A DNA stretch of 18,585 bases. Source: an uncultured Eubacteriales bacterium. GTDB taxonomy: Bacteria > Bacillota_A > Clostridia > Oscillospirales > Oscillospiraceae. Of this stretch, positions 4,911 through 14,814 are shown one piece after another (the first letter of the stretch is position 1; the number at the start of each line of letters is the position of its first letter). A program made the translations under genes and the position numbers. Location: NCBI GenBank assembly GCA_900319835.1, contig ONPY01000046.1, forward strand, positions 1-18,585, in the 5' to 3' direction. The notes under the pieces were generated by a model. It worked only from the letters and a program-made list of their open reading frames with translations, searched no databases and was not told the DNA's origin.

Positions 4911-6287
4911 TCAGCGCTCTTCCTTGACCAGGCGCTCGCCGATCTTGTAGACGTCGCCGGCGCCGACGGTCAGCACGATGTCGCCCGGGTGGGCGATGGC
5001 GCGCAGGGCGTCCTCGATGACGTCAAAGGTGGCGCAAAAGATGGAGCCGTCCACCTCCTTGGCCAGATCTGCCGAGGAGATGCCGATGGTGTTCTGTTCC
5101 CGGGCGGCGAAGATCTCCGCCAGAAACAGCACGTCGGGCCGGCGAAGCTGCTGGACGAAATCGTCAAACAGCGCCGCGGTGCGGGAGTAGGTGTGGGGCT
5201 GGAAGACCAGCACGGTGCGCTTGTGGTTGAGCTGCTCCACCGCGTCGAGCAGGACCTTCAGCTCGCCGGGGTGGTGGGCGTAGTCGTCGTAGACGTCGGC
5301 GCCGTTGTACTTGCCCTTGAACTCAAAGCGCCGTCCCGCGCCGTTGAAGCCCGCGAGACCGTACTTGACCGCGTTGGGCCGCACGCCGAGACTGATGCAG
5401 GCGGCGGTGGCGGCCAGGGCGTTCTTCACGTTGTGCAGACCCGGCACGTGCAGGGTCACGTCGGTAAACAGTCTGCCCTTGTAGAGAATGTCAAAGCGGG
5501 AGTTTGCGCCGCGGAACTCGATGTTCTCCGCGGTCACGTCCGCGTCCTTCCCAAGGCCGAAGGTGATGACCCTCCCGGCGATGTTCTGCACGACCTCCAT
5601 GGTGTTTTTGTCGTCCTTGTTGGCGATCACATAGCCGTCTGCGGGCACGCGGGCGGCGAACTCATGGAAGGAGTGCTTCACATCCTCCAGATCCTTGAAG
5701 AAGTCCAGATGGTCGGCCTCCACGTTCAGCACCACGGCCACCGTGGGGTGGAAGGAGAGGAAGGAGTTGTAGTACTCGCAGGCCTCCATGATGATGGTGT
5801 TGCCGTGGCCGACCCGGTGACCCGCCTTTAAAAGCGGCAGGGTGCCGCCGATCATGACGGTGGGGTCCTTGTCGGCCGCCATCATGATGTGGGTACACAT
5901 GGAGGTGGTGGTGGTTTTGCCGTGGGTGCCGCAGATGCACAGGGCGTTTTCGTAGTCCTTTGAGATGGCGCCCCAAGCCTGGGTGCGCTCAAAGACCGGG
6001 ATGCCCTTGGCTCTGGCGGCCATGATCTCGGGGTTGTCGTCGTGGACGGCGGCGGTGCGCACCACGAACTCCACCTCGTCGGTGATGTTTTCGGCGTGGT
6101 GTCCGATGAACACCCGAATGCCTTTGTTCCGCAGGGCCTCCACATTGGAGCCCTCGTTCATGTCCGAGCCCGTCACCAAAATGCCCATGCCGGCCAGCAC
6201 CTCCGCCAGGGAGGACATGGAAACGCCGCCGATGCCGATCAGGTGTCCCCTTCTGCCCGGGGAGAGGTAGTTGTCAAATTCAGCCAT
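4911..6287 (-). CDS. murC: UDP-N-acetylmuramate--L-alanine ligase
   Basis: Essential cytoplasmic peptidoglycan enzyme that joins L-alanine to UDP-MurNAc with ATP. The N-terminal UDP-binding motif is HLIGIGGVSMSSLAE (15-29). The Mur ligase P-loop is GTHGKTTTT (120-128). Further markers are NVEADHLDFF, YDDYAHHPGE and FQPHTYSRTAAL in the C-terminal domain. Start choice: an in-frame GTG exists at 6296, but the SD-like GGTGA overlaps that codon and lies about 5 bases before ATG 6287, so 6287 (458 aa) is preferred. The stop codon overlaps no gene, but it abuts the tcdA stop tail to tail as TGATCA. The 398-bp region upstream carries the hairpin-array element. No other mur gene is adjacent. The call is secure. 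Confidence 0.96.
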   Translation of the reverse strand: MAEFDNYLSPGRRGHLIGIGGVSMSSLAEVLAGMGILVTGSDMNEGSNVEALRNKGIRVFIGHHAENITDEVEFVVRTAAVHDDNPEIMAARAKGIPVFERTQAWGAISKDYENALCICGTHGKTTTTSMCTHIMMAADKDPTVMIGGTLPLLKAGHRVGHGNTIIMEACEYYNSFLSFHPTVAVVLNVEADHLDFFKDLEDVKHSFHEFAARVPADGYVIANKDDKNTMEVVQNIAGRVITFGLGKDADVTAENIEFRGANSRFDILYKGRLFTDVTLHVPGLHNVKNALAATAACISLGVRPNAVKYGLAGFNGAGRRFEFKGKYNGADVYDDYAHHPGELKVLLDAVEQLNHKRTVLVFQPHTYSRTAALFDDFVQQLRRPDVLFLAEIFAAREQNTIGISSADLAKEVDGSIFCATFDVIEDALRAIAHPGDIVLTVGAGDVYKIGERLVKEER

Positions 6288-6396
6288 ACAATTCACCGTC
6301 CAAAGTGTTCACAGATTCAACACAGTTCCCCCGCCTCCCACTCTTGCGGGACCGGGAAAAAGATGCTAAAATACTTTATATTTGATTTTGTCGTCT

Positions 6397-6413: not shown

Positions 6414-6424
6414 CTTGAAGATAT

Positions 6425-6635
6425 ATTATAATGATCATCGCATGGCGAAATCAATCGAGCACTCGATTGATTTCGCAGCCAAACGATAAGTTTGGCAGCG
6501 AATGATCCTATGAATCATTCGCGCGATGTTCATTGCAATGAGTATCTGGCACAGCAGATACTCTGCTGTGCTGAGCAGCAAAGCTGCTTGGCGTGAACGC
6601 CTTCTGGCGTTTCGCCATCAGATAGTCATTATAAT
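6425..6635. repeat. MITE-like multi-hairpin element with terminal inverted repeats
   Basis: A 211-bp non-coding unit. Its termini are perfect 10-bp inverted repeats, ATTATAATGA (6425-6434) and TCATTATAAT (6626-6635), which continue to 24 positions with 4 mismatches. The outer TA at each end is compatible with a TA target site, but because TA is palindromic this is not proof of duplication. Inside, hairpins follow nearly back to back: 15-bp stem 6445-6459/6462-6476; 7-bp 6478-6484/6490-6496; 9-bp 6498-6506/6514-6522; 5-bp 6523-6527/6532-6536; 9-bp 6540-6548/6555-6563; 6-bp 6574-6579/6583-6588; 6-bp 6596-6601/6606-6611. No credible protein is encoded. It could be a non-autonomous transposon or a structured RNA. 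Confidence 0.75.
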
Positions 6636-6685
6636 ACGCGGCCGGGGTTCTTGCAAGTGCTTCTTCCCGGCCCGGGAGAAGGACC

Positions 6686-7258
6686 ATGGATTCCTGGGAA
6701 AGTCTGAAACAAGAGTGCCTGAGCTGCCGCGGCTGCTCCCTGTGGGAGACGCGGCATGAGCTGGTCTTCGGCACCGGCAGCGAACAGGCCGAGGTCCTGT
6801 TTGTCGGGGAGGGCCCCGGCGAGCAGGAGGATAAGCAGGGCCTGCCCTTCGTGGGCCCCGCGGGGAAGCTCCTGGACGATATGCTGGCCATGATTGATCT
6901 GGACCGCTCCAGGGTCTATATCGCCAACATTGTCAAGTGCCGCCCGCCCGGGAACCGGGATCCCCTGAGTATCGAGCAGGAGGCCTGCCGCGGCTGGCTG
7001 GACCGGCAGATCGCCCTCCTCGACCCCAAAATCATCGTCTGTCTGGGCCGGATCGCGGCCATGGCGCTCATCAGCCCGGACTTTCGCATCACCCGTGAGC
7101 ACGGCCGCTGGTATGATGTTGACGGCCGGCGTCTCATGGCCACCTATCACCCCTCCGCCTTGCTGCGGGACGTCGCCAAGCGCCCCGAGGCATTTATGGA
7201 TCTTCGCAGTTTGAGAAAGGAAATCAAGGCTGTCTGCGGCAGCGTCTACGGTTTATGA
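6686..7258 (+). CDS. Family-4 uracil-DNA glycosylase (Fe-S)
   Basis: Removes uracil from DNA in base-excision repair. The 190-residue length is typical of the family. Iron-sulphur ligands of family 4 are visible as CRGC (C14, C17), KCRPPGN (C85) and EAC (C101); C11 is an extra cysteine. Motif A is GEGPGEQEDKQGLPFVG (41-57), and motif B is the HPS triad in TYHPSALL (H155). The ATG at 6686 has GGGAG at 7 bases. This RBS can pair with the preceding TTCTTCCC, forming a possible small hairpin (6659-6681). The stop overlaps the next start by ATGA, so it leads a three-gene operon. No clear promoter is seen between the hairpin element and the start apart from the TATAAT in the element's right end, which lacks a good -35. 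Confidence 0.95.
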   Translation: MDSWESLKQECLSCRGCSLWETRHELVFGTGSEQAEVLFVGEGPGEQEDKQGLPFVGPAGKLLDDMLAMIDLDRSRVYIANIVKCRPPGNRDPLSIEQEACRGWLDRQIALLDPKIIVCLGRIAAMALISPDFRITREHGRWYDVDGRRLMATYHPSALLRDVAKRPEAFMDLRSLRKEIKAVCGSVYGL

Positions 7259-9779: not shown

Positions 9780-9828
9780 CTTGATCCTCTCACCCAGATC
9801 TGCGCGGCAAAACTGCCGCGCCCCTCTC

Positions 9829-9857
9829 TTGTCGAACGGGGAAAAACACGCTATAAT
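9829..9857 (+). promoter_or_regulatory. Promoter of the histidine phosphatase operon
   Basis: TTGTCG (9829-9834) and TATAAT (9852-9857) are separated by 17 bases. Predicted transcription start is near 9864, with a leader of about 77 nt. The site lies inside the 5' untranslated region of the opposing purN-like transcript. Confidence 0.7.
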
Positions 9858-9893
9858 AGCAGAAACGCGTTTGCCCGTTCCCCATTCTGATTT

Positions 9894-9922
9894 ATTATAC
9901 TTGATCCTGCGGCCACGGTCAA
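9894..9922 (-). promoter_or_regulatory. Promoter of the purN-like gene
   Basis: On the minus strand TTGACC (9922-9917) and TATAAT (9899-9894) are separated by exactly 17 bases. Predicted start is near 9887, giving a leader of about 108 nt that contains an 8-bp hairpin (9802-9809 with 9814-9821). It faces the plus-strand promoter at 9829-9857. Confidence 0.75.
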
Positions 9923-9940
9923 GCGTCAGGAGGCTCCGAT

Positions 9941-11077: not shown

Positions 11078-12173
11078 CAATCCGCCGCGCATCCTGCGGC
11101 CCGTGATCGAACCCGGGCGGCGGGTGCTGGTGATCTCCGACATCCACGCCAATCTCCCCTACTTTCACGGCGCCCTGCGGGAGGCGGGCTTCTGTGACGA
11201 CGATGTGCTGATCCTCAACGGGGACTTTCTGGAAAAGGGCGCGGAGAGTCTCAAGACCCTGCGGGAGGTCATGGCCCTGTGTGAAAAGGGCAATACCTAC
11301 GCCCTCATGGGCAACTGCGACGACTGGGCCGCCATCTTCCACGAGAACGGCAAGTGGGCCAAGAACATCCTCTCCTACATGCGCTGGCGCAAAAGCGGCC
11401 TGCTCTGGGACATGGCCCTGGAGCTGGGGCTGGACCCCGCCGGGATCGAGGATTTCGCGGCCTTCAAGGTCCTGCTGGCCGCGCGCTTTCCGGCAGAGTT
11501 TGCCTTTTTGGAGACGCTGCCCCACGCGCTGGAGTGTGGAAACTTCATCTTCGCCCACGCGGCAGTCTTTCCCGGCAAGCCGCTGGAGGAGCACACGATC
11601 GGAGAGCTGGTCAAGTGCGACGCCTTCTACCGCCTGGGCTATTCCTTCGACAAGTGGCTGGTCGTGGGCCATTACCCGGTGATGCTCTACGGGGACAACA
11701 TTGTCTCGGCCAATCCCGTCATCGATAGGGCGCGGCACATCGCCAGCATCGACGGCGGCTGCGTCCTGAAGGACGACGGGCAGCTCAACTGTCTCATCAT
11801 CCCGGACATCACCGGCGATGAGCTGGACTTTACCGCCTACGACCCCTTCCCGGTGCGCCGGGTATTGGAGGACCAGGCGGCCTCCGCCCGCTCGGCCTAT
11901 ATCCGCTGGGGCGACAGCCGCGTGCAGGTGCTCCGGCGCGGGGAGGAGTTCTCCCGCTGCCGCCATGTCCGCACGGGCTATGAGCTGGATATTTTGACCA
12001 AGTACCTCTTCACGGGCGAGGAGATCACCGACTGCAACGACTGCACGGACTATGTCCTCCCCCTGCGCGCAGGAGACGAAGTGCGCGTGGTGGAGACAAC
12101 GAGCCGGGGCTACTTTGTCAAGCACAACGGCGTCTCCGGCTGGTACTTCGGGAAGCTGGAGGGTGAGAGATGA
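11064..12173 (+). CDS. Calcineurin-like metallophosphoesterase with SH3-like C-terminal domain
   Basis: A 369-residue protein. Metal-ligand motifs of metallophosphoesterases are in order: SDIHAN (D26, H28), NGDFLEKG (D54), MGNCDD (N84), FAHAAV (H165) and VGHYPV (H203). The domain resembles ApaH/PrpE-type nucleotide phosphatases. GNCD replaces the common GNHD, a known variation. The C-terminal segment (about 325-366, LPLRAGDEVRVVE to VSGWYFGKLE) has the pattern of a bacterial SH3-like domain, yet there is no signal peptide or membrane helix, so this SH3 part is apparently cytoplasmic. Middle region has extra cysteines (C324, C327). It overlaps the upstream fusion gene by 14 bp and the downstream DUF1294 gene by 4 bp. 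Confidence 0.87.
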   Translation: MGLYDNPPRILRPVIEPGRRVLVISDIHANLPYFHGALREAGFCDDDVLILNGDFLEKGAESLKTLREVMALCEKGNTYALMGNCDDWAAIFHENGKWAKNILSYMRWRKSGLLWDMALELGLDPAGIEDFAAFKVLLAARFPAEFAFLETLPHALECGNFIFAHAAVFPGKPLEEHTIGELVKCDAFYRLGYSFDKWLVVGHYPVMLYGDNIVSANPVIDRARHIASIDGGCVLKDDGQLNCLIIPDITGDELDFTAYDPFPVRRVLEDQAASARSAYIRWGDSRVQVLRRGEEFSRCRHVRTGYELDILTKYLFTGEEITDCNDCTDYVLPLRAGDEVRVVETTSRGYFVKHNGVSGWYFGKLEGER

Positions 12174-12451
12174 GAGAGCATCTGGCTTTGATCGCCGCGC
12201 TGTGGCTGCTTCTCTGGAGCCTTATTCTCTTTGTCACCATGGGCCGGGACAAGAAAAAGGCCCGCCGGGGCGCCTTCCGGGTACCGGAAAAGACGCTCTT
12301 TCTCCTGGCCTTTCTAGGCGGAGCCACGGGCGGTCTGCTCGGCATGGAGGTCTTTCACCACAAGACCAAACACGGAACCTTTGTCTGGGGCTTCCGCATT
12401 TTGACCCTTCTGCAGCTTGCCGGTCTGCTCCGGCTGCTGTCCGGGCGATAA
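12170..12451 (+). CDS. DUF1294 small membrane protein
   Basis: A 93-residue protein with two to three hydrophobic stretches: an N-terminal helix (about 5-23), a Gly-rich one (about 43-60) and a C-terminal one (about 73-90). Between them are the DUF1294 hallmarks DKKKARRGAFRVPEKTL (27-43) and MEVFHHKTKHGTF (59-71). The function of the family is unknown. The ATG overlaps the metallophosphoesterase stop (ATGA), and the stop TAA is built into the A-run of the terminator hairpin. It is the last gene of the three-gene operon. Confidence 0.9.
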   Translation: MREHLALIAALWLLLWSLILFVTMGRDKKKARRGAFRVPEKTLFLLAFLGGATGGLLGMEVFHHKTKHGTFVWGFRILTLLQLAGLLRLLSGR

Positions 12452-12496: not shown

Positions 12497-13210
12497 TCAG
12501 CCGTCCGCCTCAAACTCGCAGATATAACCCATGGTGCCGGAATAGAACTCGGGGTAGTCGGCGCAGGGGTCGTCCCGGTTGTCGTTGTAGGCCCAGCCGC
12601 TGTGGTTCCAGAGCATGATGTAATCCTCGGCCACGCGGTCGTTGGTGTCCACAAAGGTCGGCTCGTTCGGCGCCCAGCGGAAGATGCCCTCGCCCGTCTC
12701 CCAGACGTAGTCGCCGTTGACCCGGTGGCAGCCGATCCAGACGCGGCTGATGCCGGCCCCCTCGGCCAGGCGGATGATCTCCTGCAGCTCCGCTTCATCG
12801 TTGATGACCGCCAGATGGCCGCCCAGATCCGCGCACTTCTGCTGGGCCTGGGTCCAGCTCACGTCCTCCTTGAAGACCTGATAGCCGTGCTCCGCGGGCC
12901 TGACCGCCGGCGTGGCGGTCTCCTCAGGCGCAGCGGTCTCTTCGGGCGTTGGATCCGCTTCCTCGGGTGAAGCAAACTCGTCGGGCGCGGCAGGGGTCTC
13001 GGGCTGCGCGCTCTCCGCAGGCTCCGCGCTCTCCGGTTCCTCCTCGGGGGAGGCGTAGGGGTCTACCGCCACAGGCTCCACCAGGTTGTCCGGCTTGGCA
13101 CGCTTCTCTTCATAGTCCTTCAGCATGGCGTTCATCAAAATCGCCGCGATCACCATGACCGCGCACAGCACCAGGACGATGGGCAGCGGTCTCTTTTTCT
13201 GTTTGTTCAC
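12497..13210 (-). CDS. Membrane-anchored C-type lectin-domain protein
   Basis: A 237-residue protein with a short basic N-terminus, one membrane helix (about 9-29), a Pro/Glu/Ala-rich acidic linker (about 40-105) and a C-type lectin-like domain (about 108-233). CTLD markers are SWTQAQQKCADLGGHLAVI, RVWIGCHR, NEPTF and a C-terminal YICEF. The four cysteines C126, C161, C216 and C231 fit the two canonical disulphides. The acidic YNDNRDDP loop could bind calcium, but the classical EPN/WND set is not exact. The topology implies an external lectin domain. The start is GTG at 13210 because no ATG precedes the membrane helix; AAAGGAA lies about 12 bases upstream, a weak spacing. It follows the pseudokinase-CTLD gene by 41 bp, probably as an operon. 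The ligand is unknown. Confidence 0.85.
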   Translation of the reverse strand: MNKQKKRPLPIVLVLCAVMVIAAILMNAMLKDYEEKRAKPDNLVEPVAVDPYASPEEEPESAEPAESAQPETPAAPDEFASPEEADPTPEETAAPEETATPAVRPAEHGYQVFKEDVSWTQAQQKCADLGGHLAVINDEAELQEIIRLAEGAGISRVWIGCHRVNGDYVWETGEGIFRWAPNEPTFVDTNDRVAEDYIMLWNHSGWAYNDNRDDPCADYPEFYSGTMGYICEFEADG

Positions 13211-13251: not shown

Positions 13252-14814
13252 TCAGTCGTAAAATTCGCAGATATAGCCCATGGTGCCGGAGTAGAACTCC
13301 GGGTAGTCCCGGCAGGGGTCGTCCCGGTTGTCGTTGTAGGCCCAGCCGCCGTGGTTCCAGAGCATGATGTAATCTTCCATAAAGCCCTCGTCCTCAAAGG
13401 TGGGCTCGCCGCGGGCCCAGAGGACATAGCCCTCGTAACCCGCATCCTTGCCGTCCCAGCGGTACTCGTCGCTGTCGCGGTTTGTCCGGTGCATGCCGAT
13501 CCAGACCCGGCTGATGCCGGCCTCCTCGGCCATGCGGATGACCTCCTGCAGTTCCTCCTCGTCATCGATGGCGACGAGATGGCCGCCCAGGGCCGCGCAC
13601 TTGCGCTGCGCATCGCTCCAGCTTCCGTCGTCCACCAGCACCTGGTAGCCGTGCTCATTTTCCGGGGGCAGCTCCACTTCGGGCACCGCCACAGGCTCCA
13701 TGGTCACGCTGGGCCCGGGCGTCGCGCTGTTGAAGGCCTCAAACGGGATGGGCGTCAGGCTCGGTTCCACCGGCGCGGTGGGCGTCGGGGGCATGAGATC
13801 GGTGCGCCGGGAGTTTCCGCCCAGGTCGCCGGGGAAGGCGTTGAACACCACCGCCGCCAGCAGCAGCAGTCCGCAGAGCACCAGGATCACCGCCAACGGC
13901 CGTCTGCGCCGTTTGCGGATCTCCTCCTGGATCTGCTTTTCCCGGTCCGCCTTGAGCTTGTACTGCACGGCGGGGGCCCCTCTCGAGAGCGTCACCGGGG
14001 CCAGATCGTCCTCCGCCCGGCCCAGCTTCGGGGCCGCGGGAGAGGATGTGCTCTTCATCTTCTGGGCAAGCATTTCCGCCTGGGAAGCGGAGAGCACGTC
14101 CTTCTGGGTGCCCTTGGGCGTGGGCTTGTAGACCTTCACGCCGTCCTCCGGCTCCTCCTCGGGGAAGTCCTCGGCGGTCTCGATGGCAATGTCCTCATCC
14201 CGCTCGATGATGCCCACCATCATCCGCTCGACCTCGTCCAGGTCGTCGTCGTTCTTTTGAAAGATCGCTTCCGCGCTCGGGACGCCGCTGAGATACAGGT
14301 TCTTGACGCAGCTGTCCACCACGGCGCGCAGCTCCTCGAGCGTCTGGTAGCGCTCGGAGGCCTTGAAGCGCAGGGATTTTTCAATGATCGTGCCGAGTCT
14401 GCGCCCGGCGTTTTTGGGGGCCTTGGGGTTGCCGCCGCCCATGCGGCGCAGCTGCGGATCCTCGCACTCCCCCTCCAGCGGCAGCTTGCCGCCGCTGACC
14501 GCGGCGTACATCATCAGGCCGATGGAATACACGTCCGAGGCGGCGGAGAGCTGGCCGTTCCAGTAGAGCTCCGGCGCGATGTACTGCAGCTCTCTCCCCT
14601 CCCAGGGGGCTTTGCCGGCAGGACCGATGGCAATGGCGCCGTCAGCGCCCACGCTGATGTTCTCCGGGTACAGTCCGCCCCGGCGGCCGCGTGAGCCCAC
14701 CTCGGCAACCACGGTGCGGCAGAGAGCCGAGACAAACATGCACAGCTCCTGCTTATCCATCTCTGCAATTTTTCCGCCCAGGGCTTTGCCCGGATCAAAT
14801 TCCGCCTTTGCCAT
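13252..14814 (-). CDS. Pseudokinase C-lobe-TM-C-type lectin fusion receptor-like protein
   Basis: 520 residues. Residues about 25-172 resemble only the C-lobe of a Ser/Thr protein kinase: GLYPENI (47-53, in place of HRDLKPENI), IGPAG (63-67, in place of DFG), the APE loop YIAPELYW (78-85), DVYSIGLMMY (94-103) and the terminal SERYQTLEEL (153-162). The nucleotide-binding N-lobe is absent and the catalytic Asp and DFG Asp are gone, so it should be inactive. An acidic/basic cytoplasmic linker (about 180-305), one membrane helix (about 306-326), a Pro/Thr stalk and a CTLD (about 387-519; C406, C501, C516) follow. WIGM replaces WIGC, so one disulphide is lost. Start: an ATG at 14862 lies upstream of the predicted transcription start, whereas ATG 14814 has AGGAGGA about 6 bases before it. 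It likely binds something outside and signals or scaffolds inside; this is inference. Confidence 0.85.
   Translation of the reverse strand: MAKAEFDPGKALGGKIAEMDKQELCMFVSALCRTVVAEVGSRGRRGGLYPENISVGADGAIAIGPAGKAPWEGRELQYIAPELYWNGQLSAASDVYSIGLMMYAAVSGGKLPLEGECEDPQLRRMGGGNPKAPKNAGRRLGTIIEKSLRFKASERYQTLEELRAVVDSCVKNLYLSGVPSAEAIFQKNDDDLDEVERMMVGIIERDEDIAIETAEDFPEEEPEDGVKVYKPTPKGTQKDVLSASQAEMLAQKMKSTSSPAAPKLGRAEDDLAPVTLSRGAPAVQYKLKADREKQIQEEIRKRRRRPLAVILVLCGLLLLAAVVFNAFPGDLGGNSRRTDLMPPTPTAPVEPSLTPIPFEAFNSATPGPSVTMEPVAVPEVELPPENEHGYQVLVDDGSWSDAQRKCAALGGHLVAIDDEEELQEVIRMAEEAGISRVWIGMHRTNRDSDEYRWDGKDAGYEGYVLWARGEPTFEDEGFMEDYIMLWNHGGWAYNDNRDDPCRDYPEFYSGTMGYICEFYD

Follow-up and report, generated by a model that had tools for sequence, protein, structure and literature searches.

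A Folded Element between murC and the Uracil-DNA Glycosylase Gene

The window investigated here, that is, the whole analysed stretch of 18,585 nucleotides from an uncultured Oscillospiraceae bacterium, contains two divergent genes with a highly structured element between them. A Mur ligase gene, taken as murC, lies on the minus strand (4911..6296; an ORF with the Pfam domains Mur_ligase, Mur_ligase_M, and Mur_ligase_C), and the gene for uracil-DNA glycosylase (UDG) lies on the plus strand (6686..7258; Pfam UDG, 125 bits). The nearest relatives of this UDG were found in Oscillospiraceae assemblies from rumen and gut, at no more than 86% amino-acid identity, and all genome comparisons were made on relatives of the window's host. 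Elsewhere in the window, positions 12512-12892 and 13261-13656 hold two long direct repeats (117 nt at 92%, 183 nt at 79%), which lie about 749-764 bp apart and are probably a duplicated domain or gene.

A reading of the sequence alone (hereafter the sequence-only reading), which also supplied the name murC, had described 211 bp between the two genes as almost entirely base paired and closed by terminal inverted repeats (TIRs), and both statements held. The folding energy of the segment 6415-6645 was -77.7 kcal/mol (z -12.4) when treated as DNA and -114.3 kcal/mol (z -11.2) when treated as RNA, none of 200 shuffles being as good in either case, and the arms 6424-6450 and 6610-6636 were 85% complementary over 27 nt. 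Conservation within the family placed the edges at 6428 and 6632 (ATAATGA...TCATTAT). The whole element, ATAATGATCATC...AGTCATTAT, thus occupies 205 bp (6428..6632, plus strand), with edges taken from 59 full-length copies and a covariance model match of 216 bits. The inverted repeat and the aligned TIR columns delimit a left TIR at 6428..6450 (plus strand) and a right TIR at 6610..6632 (minus strand).

The best-supported fold has two lobes, with hairpins 1-3 in the left and 5-7 in the right, each closed by AATGA/TCATT, and with TCATTGCAATGA between them. The left lobe (6429..6535, plus strand), seen in the minimum-energy fold of the window, consists of a closing stem (6429-6440/6524-6535, helix 1) around three hairpins; 96.1% of the cells of this stem were paired, and 3 of its 11 pairs showed two-sided changes. 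Such changes affected 11 of 13 pairs in hairpin 1 (6445..6476, 13-bp stem, helix 2), 5 of 7 in hairpin 2 (6478..6496, 7-bp stem, helix 3), and 9 of 11 in hairpin 3 (6498..6522, with an 11-bp stem in the family, helix 4), all on the plus strand. The right lobe (6537..6630, plus strand) likewise has a closing stem (6537-6548/6619-6630, helix 5; 93.5% paired, two-sided changes in 7 of 11 pairs) around three plus-strand hairpins, namely hairpin 5 (6549..6571, helix 6), hairpin 6 (6573..6589, helix 7), and hairpin 7 (6590..6616, helix 8), where two-sided changes were found in 6 of 10, 3 of 7, and 6 of 10 pairs, respectively. The central junction TCATTGCAATGA (6530..6541, assigned to neither strand) was recognized from consensus columns, and divergent families have a similar motif.

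In an alternative fold, this junction forms a central hairpin and the TIRs pair as one long terminal stem. The proposal that two mutually exclusive folds exist was borne out, and the terminal-stem fold was the minimum-energy fold of some copies. The long terminal stem was mostly unpaired at positions 9, 12, and 13 (paired in 25 of 87, 18 of 85, and 20 of 87 copies), and these steady mismatches make it less supported than the two-lobed fold. The count of seven hairpins did not stand: covariation favors six, the supposed fourth being the lobe junction.

Copies and Distribution of the Element

The element belongs to a multi-copy family of Oscillospiraceae from rumen and gut. Further copies were found at other places in loci L050, L031, L032, and L028. 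All nine whole genomes of a first set had matches, four of the nine having been picked because copies had already shown there. Among 49 relatives, which include distant genomes such as Treponema and Ralstonia (not matching), 17 genomes had matches. The matching pieces, a count that takes in fragments and opposite-strand self-matches, numbered 74 in genome G002, 33 in G046, 28 in G027, 26 in G036, and 23 in G028. In G002, the TIR pattern (at most three mismatches) occurred at 79 sites, versus 4 for the reversed control pattern. Copies were 135-252 bp long and non-coding. One G002 site with a copy (L116) has its counterpart at 9780-9940 of the window, where no copy is present. When genomes were drawn evenly from the family of G002, only 12 of 300 matched, four of them weakly, so the element family is patchy.

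The covariance model, applied with strict filters to 394 genomes of the order, found matches in 13, G002 included. The stems read differently in eight (G362, G471, G599, G519, G574, G607, G454, and G522), where the plan is nonetheless similar: the ends read ATAATGA or nearly so, and two sets of hairpins flank a TCATTnnAATGA-like middle (with a single hairpin on the right side in G454). A larger set of copies from these divergent families was gathered by requiring the end and middle motifs and is thus not independent evidence for them. By eye, the divergent families sit in AT-richer sequence. The match in G285 was without ATAATGA-type ends, and those in G590, G603, and G623 were weak. Across the class, an exact pattern of the plan was found in 1 of 391 genomes, G002 alone, the pattern being too strict to show the range. 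Neither phage and plasmid records searched with the element nor a viral search with the hairpin pattern gave a match. Carriage by viruses was rejected, as two near-identical matches to the TIR pattern (L207 was checked) and one match to the plan pattern lay inside reading frames and looked like chance.

Some copies depart from the common form. Several shorter ones are without one or more hairpins. In L205 (2330-2574), the hairpin 1 region is tandemly duplicated inside the copy, which is still almost fully paired. Mini copies of about 55-60 bp, with one hairpin between AATGA-like ends, occur at L212:2218, L221:4258, and L209:4471 and are perhaps solo right lobes.

Target Site and Nature of the Element

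Insertion was read from an empty site. Locus L027 reads GGT-AT-AGTGGG, while L031 (copy at 12032-12236) reads GGT-ATAATGAG...ATGATTAT-AGTGGG, with flanks 95-98% identical. Since L027 has exactly AT where L031 carries the element, insertion duplicated 2 bp, the base-precise duplication coming from this one empty site. No repeat of 3 bp or more adjoined the edges in 76 copies. By base counts, the flanks read YRYT|AT|ARYR, alike on both sides, and the AT is near-invariant in the copies. A longer duplication, TATA, was rejected: the inner bases were near-invariant, but the outer T stood in only 64 of 87 flanks on the left and 57 of 86 on the right (the latter read inward).

The murC-UDG locus itself is empty in relatives. 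Both flanks of the element were aligned to 14 orthologous loci, and the site was read in the ten whose right flank aligned to the edge (L002, L003, L004, L007, L008, L009, L010, L011, L013, and L022), L005, L006, L033, and L034 being left out. All ten were without the element (nhmmer) and read TTATAATACG, followed by TTGCAA at the same place.

The element has the features of a miniature inverted-repeat transposable element (MITE): it is short and non-coding, has TIRs, occurs in many dispersed copies, and shows a target duplication (2 bp, AT, at one precise empty site). The sequence-only reading had suggested a non-autonomous mobile element and a search for copies as its test, and the search, once run, returned many copies with conserved stems, compensatory changes, and empty sites. 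We therefore consider it probable, with good confidence, that this stretch is a copy of a mobile element that is MITE-like and non-autonomous. A trans-acting enzyme would recognize its ends, AATGA standing at four places, and would insert it at promoter-like sites of the consensus YRYT-AT-ARYR, sometimes exactly in a -10 box. Candidates for this enzyme are a DDE transposase that cuts with a 2-bp stagger and a serine recombinase whose core is AT, the latter of which would account for the near-invariant AT.

Predicted Promoters and Genomic Position

On the minus strand, the empty orthologous site reads TTGCAA-17-TATAAT, which is the predicted murC promoter (spacing by eye), and the element is inserted in its -10. 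In the window, the right element end and the flank restore TATAAT at 6633-6628, 17 bp from TTGCAA at 6656-6651. The predicted -10 (6628..6633, minus strand) takes ATAAT from the element and T from the flank and is the same as in the ten orthologous sites, which also keep the predicted -35 (6651..6656, minus strand). With (T)ATAATGA at its left end and TCATTAT(A) at its right, the element rebuilds the -10 hexamer on both sides. The TATAAT seen earlier as facing outward at both sides needed a correction: as a box, the flanking T plus ATAAT reads into the element, and in the window it reads outward too because ATTATAAT is a palindrome. For UDG, a promoter was predicted by eye upstream of the element (6344..6372, plus strand; TTGCGG - 17 bp - TAAAAT), with TTGCGG-17-TAGAAT in L003. 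With the -10 rebuilt, a struck promoter would keep its -35 and -10, and the gene would survive with the element as a long folded leader. In the window, the leaders of both murC (promoter 6656-6628, minus strand) and UDG (promoter 6344-6372, plus strand) would contain it. The two predicted promoters face each other, so that their leaders would overlap, and we estimate that the insertion lengthens this overlap to about 240 bp.

Across the family, 33 of 86 copies had a -35-like hexamer (at least four of six bases) at 16-18 bp from one end, compared with 9-24 copies (mean 17) at 12 control spacings. Most copies had no recognizable -35 at the right spacing, and hence the -10 target is shown for few sites. 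Insertion into a -10 box is likely for some sites and unproven for most.

The genomic positions of the copies were also investigated, with gene calls from a simple home-made codon scorer. The 83 element-bearing intergenic regions comprised 41 divergent, 37 tandem, and 5 convergent ones; in a previous tally of 76 copies, the numbers were 36, 33, and 6, with 1 open. For comparison, 313 intergenic regions without the element, each 60 bp or longer, were taken from the same loci; divergent regions made up 24% of their bases and convergent ones 14.7%. Divergent regions were thus in excess (binomial p 5e-7) and convergent ones in deficit (p 0.03). Among the copies examined, none lay inside a called gene.

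Conservation of the Fold

The stems of the element vary in sequence and keep their pairing. In 87 copies (84 distinct) aligned with the covariance model, 96.8% of pair cells paired and 50 of 80 pairs showed two-sided changes (338 cells), against a mean of 19.8 for shuffled and 13-27 for slid controls, although an alignment of this kind leans to structure. When the 59 full-length copies were aligned on sequence only, two-sided changes were found in 41 of 80 pairs, against 15.3 for shuffles and 15-20 for slid controls; the structure was drawn from the same 59 sequences, which makes the slid control generous to structure. Compensated internal stems are not required of a plain MITE, and this counts against the MITE reading.

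One alternative is a structured RNA, already offered by the sequence-only reading: a cis-regulatory leader or small RNA would have spread by duplication, with selection on the folded transcript. The strong two-sided covariation agrees with it, and so does the finding that, of 119 element ends facing a start codon, 68 are no more than 80 bp away from it. If one RNA strand were selected, G.U should be tolerated better, but in the 57 hairpin pairs of the 87 copies, G.T (73 cells) was as common as A.C (69 cells), so such selection was not seen. The balance was similar without the seven pairs whose mismatch type recurs in at least four copies (35 versus 38) and after collapsing copies at 95% identity (27 versus 31), while a single G.T pair common to 18 copies goes in the opposite direction. 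Moreover, the copies stand in both orientations at various genes, and no Rfam match above the gathering score was found in the window or in nine related loci; weak matches to STnc390 and P17, below that score, lie elsewhere in the window than the element.

Copies sharing one site could show the stems being kept in place. In the pair L085/L179 (genomes G005 and G013), where the element precedes a gene reading like rpsT in two species, 68 of 80 pairs were unchanged, and changes were compensated in 7, gave a wobble in 1, and broke 4. Of the 38 unpaired bases, 19 differed. This pattern speaks for a selected transcript. On the other hand, this divergence is as large as that between the copies of the window and L081, the sole different-site pair compared, so a replacement is possible there. 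The two other same-site pairs had no compensated change: L093/L151 showed 2 wobble and 3 broken pairs, and L084/L194 differed at 3 aligned positions, with flanks 93-95% identical. Maintenance of the stems in place is thus suggested by one pair, possibly a replacement, and the structured RNA as a whole seems quite improbable to us.

The arms may instead be kept by mutation. In quasi-palindromes, one arm can serve as the template for the other through template switching, which would make a two-sided change in one step. Many exchanges such as A-U to C-G occurred with almost no unpaired intermediates (for example, CG 43, AU 32, GC 6, UA 1, unpaired 1), and this, like the equality of G.T and A.C, agrees with such a process. 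Nevertheless, it leaves the two-lobed plan kept across divergent families unaccounted for, and we regard it as rather unlikely to be the explanation.

Search for the Mobilizing Enzyme

No autonomous relative of the element was found in the sequence examined, that is, among unpaired ends, matches of the TIR pattern in G002 and G062, and gene-sized end pairs. Many MITEs are without a related autonomous insertion sequence. The orphan ends in G002 and G062 were truncated or mini copies or chance-like matches. Ten gene-sized end pairs with equal 2-bp flanks were listed and five were opened (L203, L115, and L051 were left out). None of the five was an autonomous element, the enclosed genes being an SH3-domain protein in L119, a diacylglycerol kinase in L136, a glycosyltransferase and Mbeg1-like in L186, TraX in L123, and a hydantoinase and rhodanese in L192. 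The orphan matches L214 and L218 (3 and 2 mismatches), where the model finds no copy, were taken for chance. They sit at the end of a serine integrase gene beside a sigma-70 factor gene, and this integrase, seen in G002 and G062, is part of a different inserted element. There (L214:1758-3882 and L218:1809-3981; G002, G062), the large serine integrase gene abuts a sigma-70 family factor gene whose frame seemingly starts late, possibly an integrated element interrupting the sigma factor gene.

IS30-type elements and serine recombinases have a 2-bp duplication or a 2-bp core and a palindromic target. Halfway along the element, AATGA ends abut with a 2-bp spacer between them, which recalls a dimer or circle junction. 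However, the IS30 domain (HTH_38, PF13936) did not track the element: among 13 carriers and 8 non-carriers, it exceeded the cut-off in 4 and 2, respectively, and at E 0.001 it was found in 7 of each, the other 6 carriers being without a match. An IS630-type origin, which would go with a TA duplication, was rejected as well, since the DDE_3 domain (PF13358) was found in 1 of 21 genomes, a non-carrier, and so did not track the element.

The fold may also be needed as DNA, a folded single strand being handled by an HUH (Y1) transposase as in IS200/IS605 and RAYT/REPIN systems; excision in this form had been one of the initial suggestions. The hairpin-rich body and the absence of strand bias in the mismatches are consistent with it. 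Y1 matches were found in 8 of 11 carriers versus 4 of 10 non-carriers, and RAYT-like genes in 6 of 11 carriers (G002, G062, G046, G028, G048, and G243) and at least 1 of 10 non-carriers (G029), the latter count leaving out matches in G020, G024, and G030. In the four of these RAYT-like genes that were scanned, the NCBIfam model REP_Tyr_transpos scored 66-81 bits (cut-off 80). In contrast, a double-strand recombinase would better explain the 2-bp duplication and the symmetric target, and carriers G027, G036, and G471 had no Y1 match. IS200/IS605-derived elements make no target duplication and have no TIRs, and membership in that group was rejected because the element has both. Twenty Y1 genes were opened, most of them RAYT-like and four of classic IS200 type by eye (L282, L290, L291, and L292, with L290 confirmed), and no copy of the element lay in the 2.5-5 kb around them. 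Thus, RAYT-like genes track the element only partly, and handling by a Y1 enzyme appears unlikely.

By eye, the RAYT-like genes L274, L275, L286, and L289 adjoin a different repeat. In L274 (G002 contig 26), the 260 bp before the RAYT-like Y1 gene (1800-2309) hold an array of a GGGCGGCAGATTGCCGCCCCTACG hairpin repeat, and in L275, L286, and L289 the genes lie beside single hairpins ending in CCCCTACG or its reverse. These hairpins are a separate REP-like family in the same hosts, differing from the element.

Comparison with Known Repeats and Implications

The element family was not found in the literature searched (MITE reviews and work on BOX, bcr, and REPIN, with few subscription papers). 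The element behaves as MITE-like, and the two-lobed family itself appears to be new. The likenesses below follow excerpts of the published accounts. Like the element, BOX and RUP of Streptococcus pneumoniae are small multi-copy non-coding sequences that have TIRs and a target duplication and whose body, TIRs included, is tightly folded (excerpts of PMC3049150). According to the same excerpts, BOX, RUP, and SPRITE are over-represented between convergent genes, BOX being only slightly so between divergent ones (PMC3049150); the element, in contrast, is enriched between divergent and depleted between convergent genes. The repeats bcr1-bcr18 of the Bacillus cereus group resemble it as repeats of 100-400 bp, several of them mobile-element-like, and are described there as often lying in UTRs or operon gaps, with conserved secondary structures in bcr10 and bcr18 (parts of PMC6542083 and PMC3446304). 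Their mobility is linked in these parts to a TTTAT motif, whereas the element uses AT within TATA, and the two-lobed plan is absent from the bcr descriptions compared (PMC6542083, PMC3446304).

Correia elements of Neisseria are, in the portion of the account consulted, mobile miniatures that carry promoter sequences and map for the most part directly upstream of genes (PMC10969869). Those promoters are sigma-70-like there, whereas the element rebuilds only a -10 box at each end. REPINs, as far as the consulted parts describe them, are similarly hairpin-based and multi-copy (PMC3116915, PMC2817692, PMC3733652). RAYT-like genes were found in some of the genomes that carry the element. Unlike REPINs as described in those parts, the element has TIRs and a 2-bp duplication, no GTAG/CGTC tag in its consensus, and no copy near any of the opened RAYT-like genes; the missing tag and the empty 2.5-5 kb around the opened Y1 genes led us to reject membership in REPIN/RAYT.

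Returning to the MITE-like element, we tentatively entertain a joint reading, possible but short of probable, in which it belongs to a fold-defined superfamily of two three-hairpin lobes that targets and rebuilds -10 boxes and is moved by an enzyme reading its ends or its folded form. Each lobe would then be bounded by AATGA/TCATT, and the 2-bp spacer joining the lobes, equal in length to the outer 2-bp duplication, would resemble the fossil of a dimer or circle junction formed by two mini-elements. The enzyme would perhaps be a serine recombinase with an AT core. Insertion would leave the promoter alive with the element as a transcribed leader, and other genomes of the order would keep the plan with different stem sequences.

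Pneumococcal miniature repeats, as the excerpted account has it, tend to sit behind genes, the least harmful place, whereas this family shows the reverse preference and is found in promoter regions. At least at murC, with its predicted promoter, the element seems built so that the struck promoter still works. The conserved plan with changing stems offers a direct test between folded DNA, folded RNA, and a mutational palindrome process. If the arrangement is general, the family would have given new leaders to many genes of rumen and gut bacteria, here murC and uracil-DNA glycosylase.
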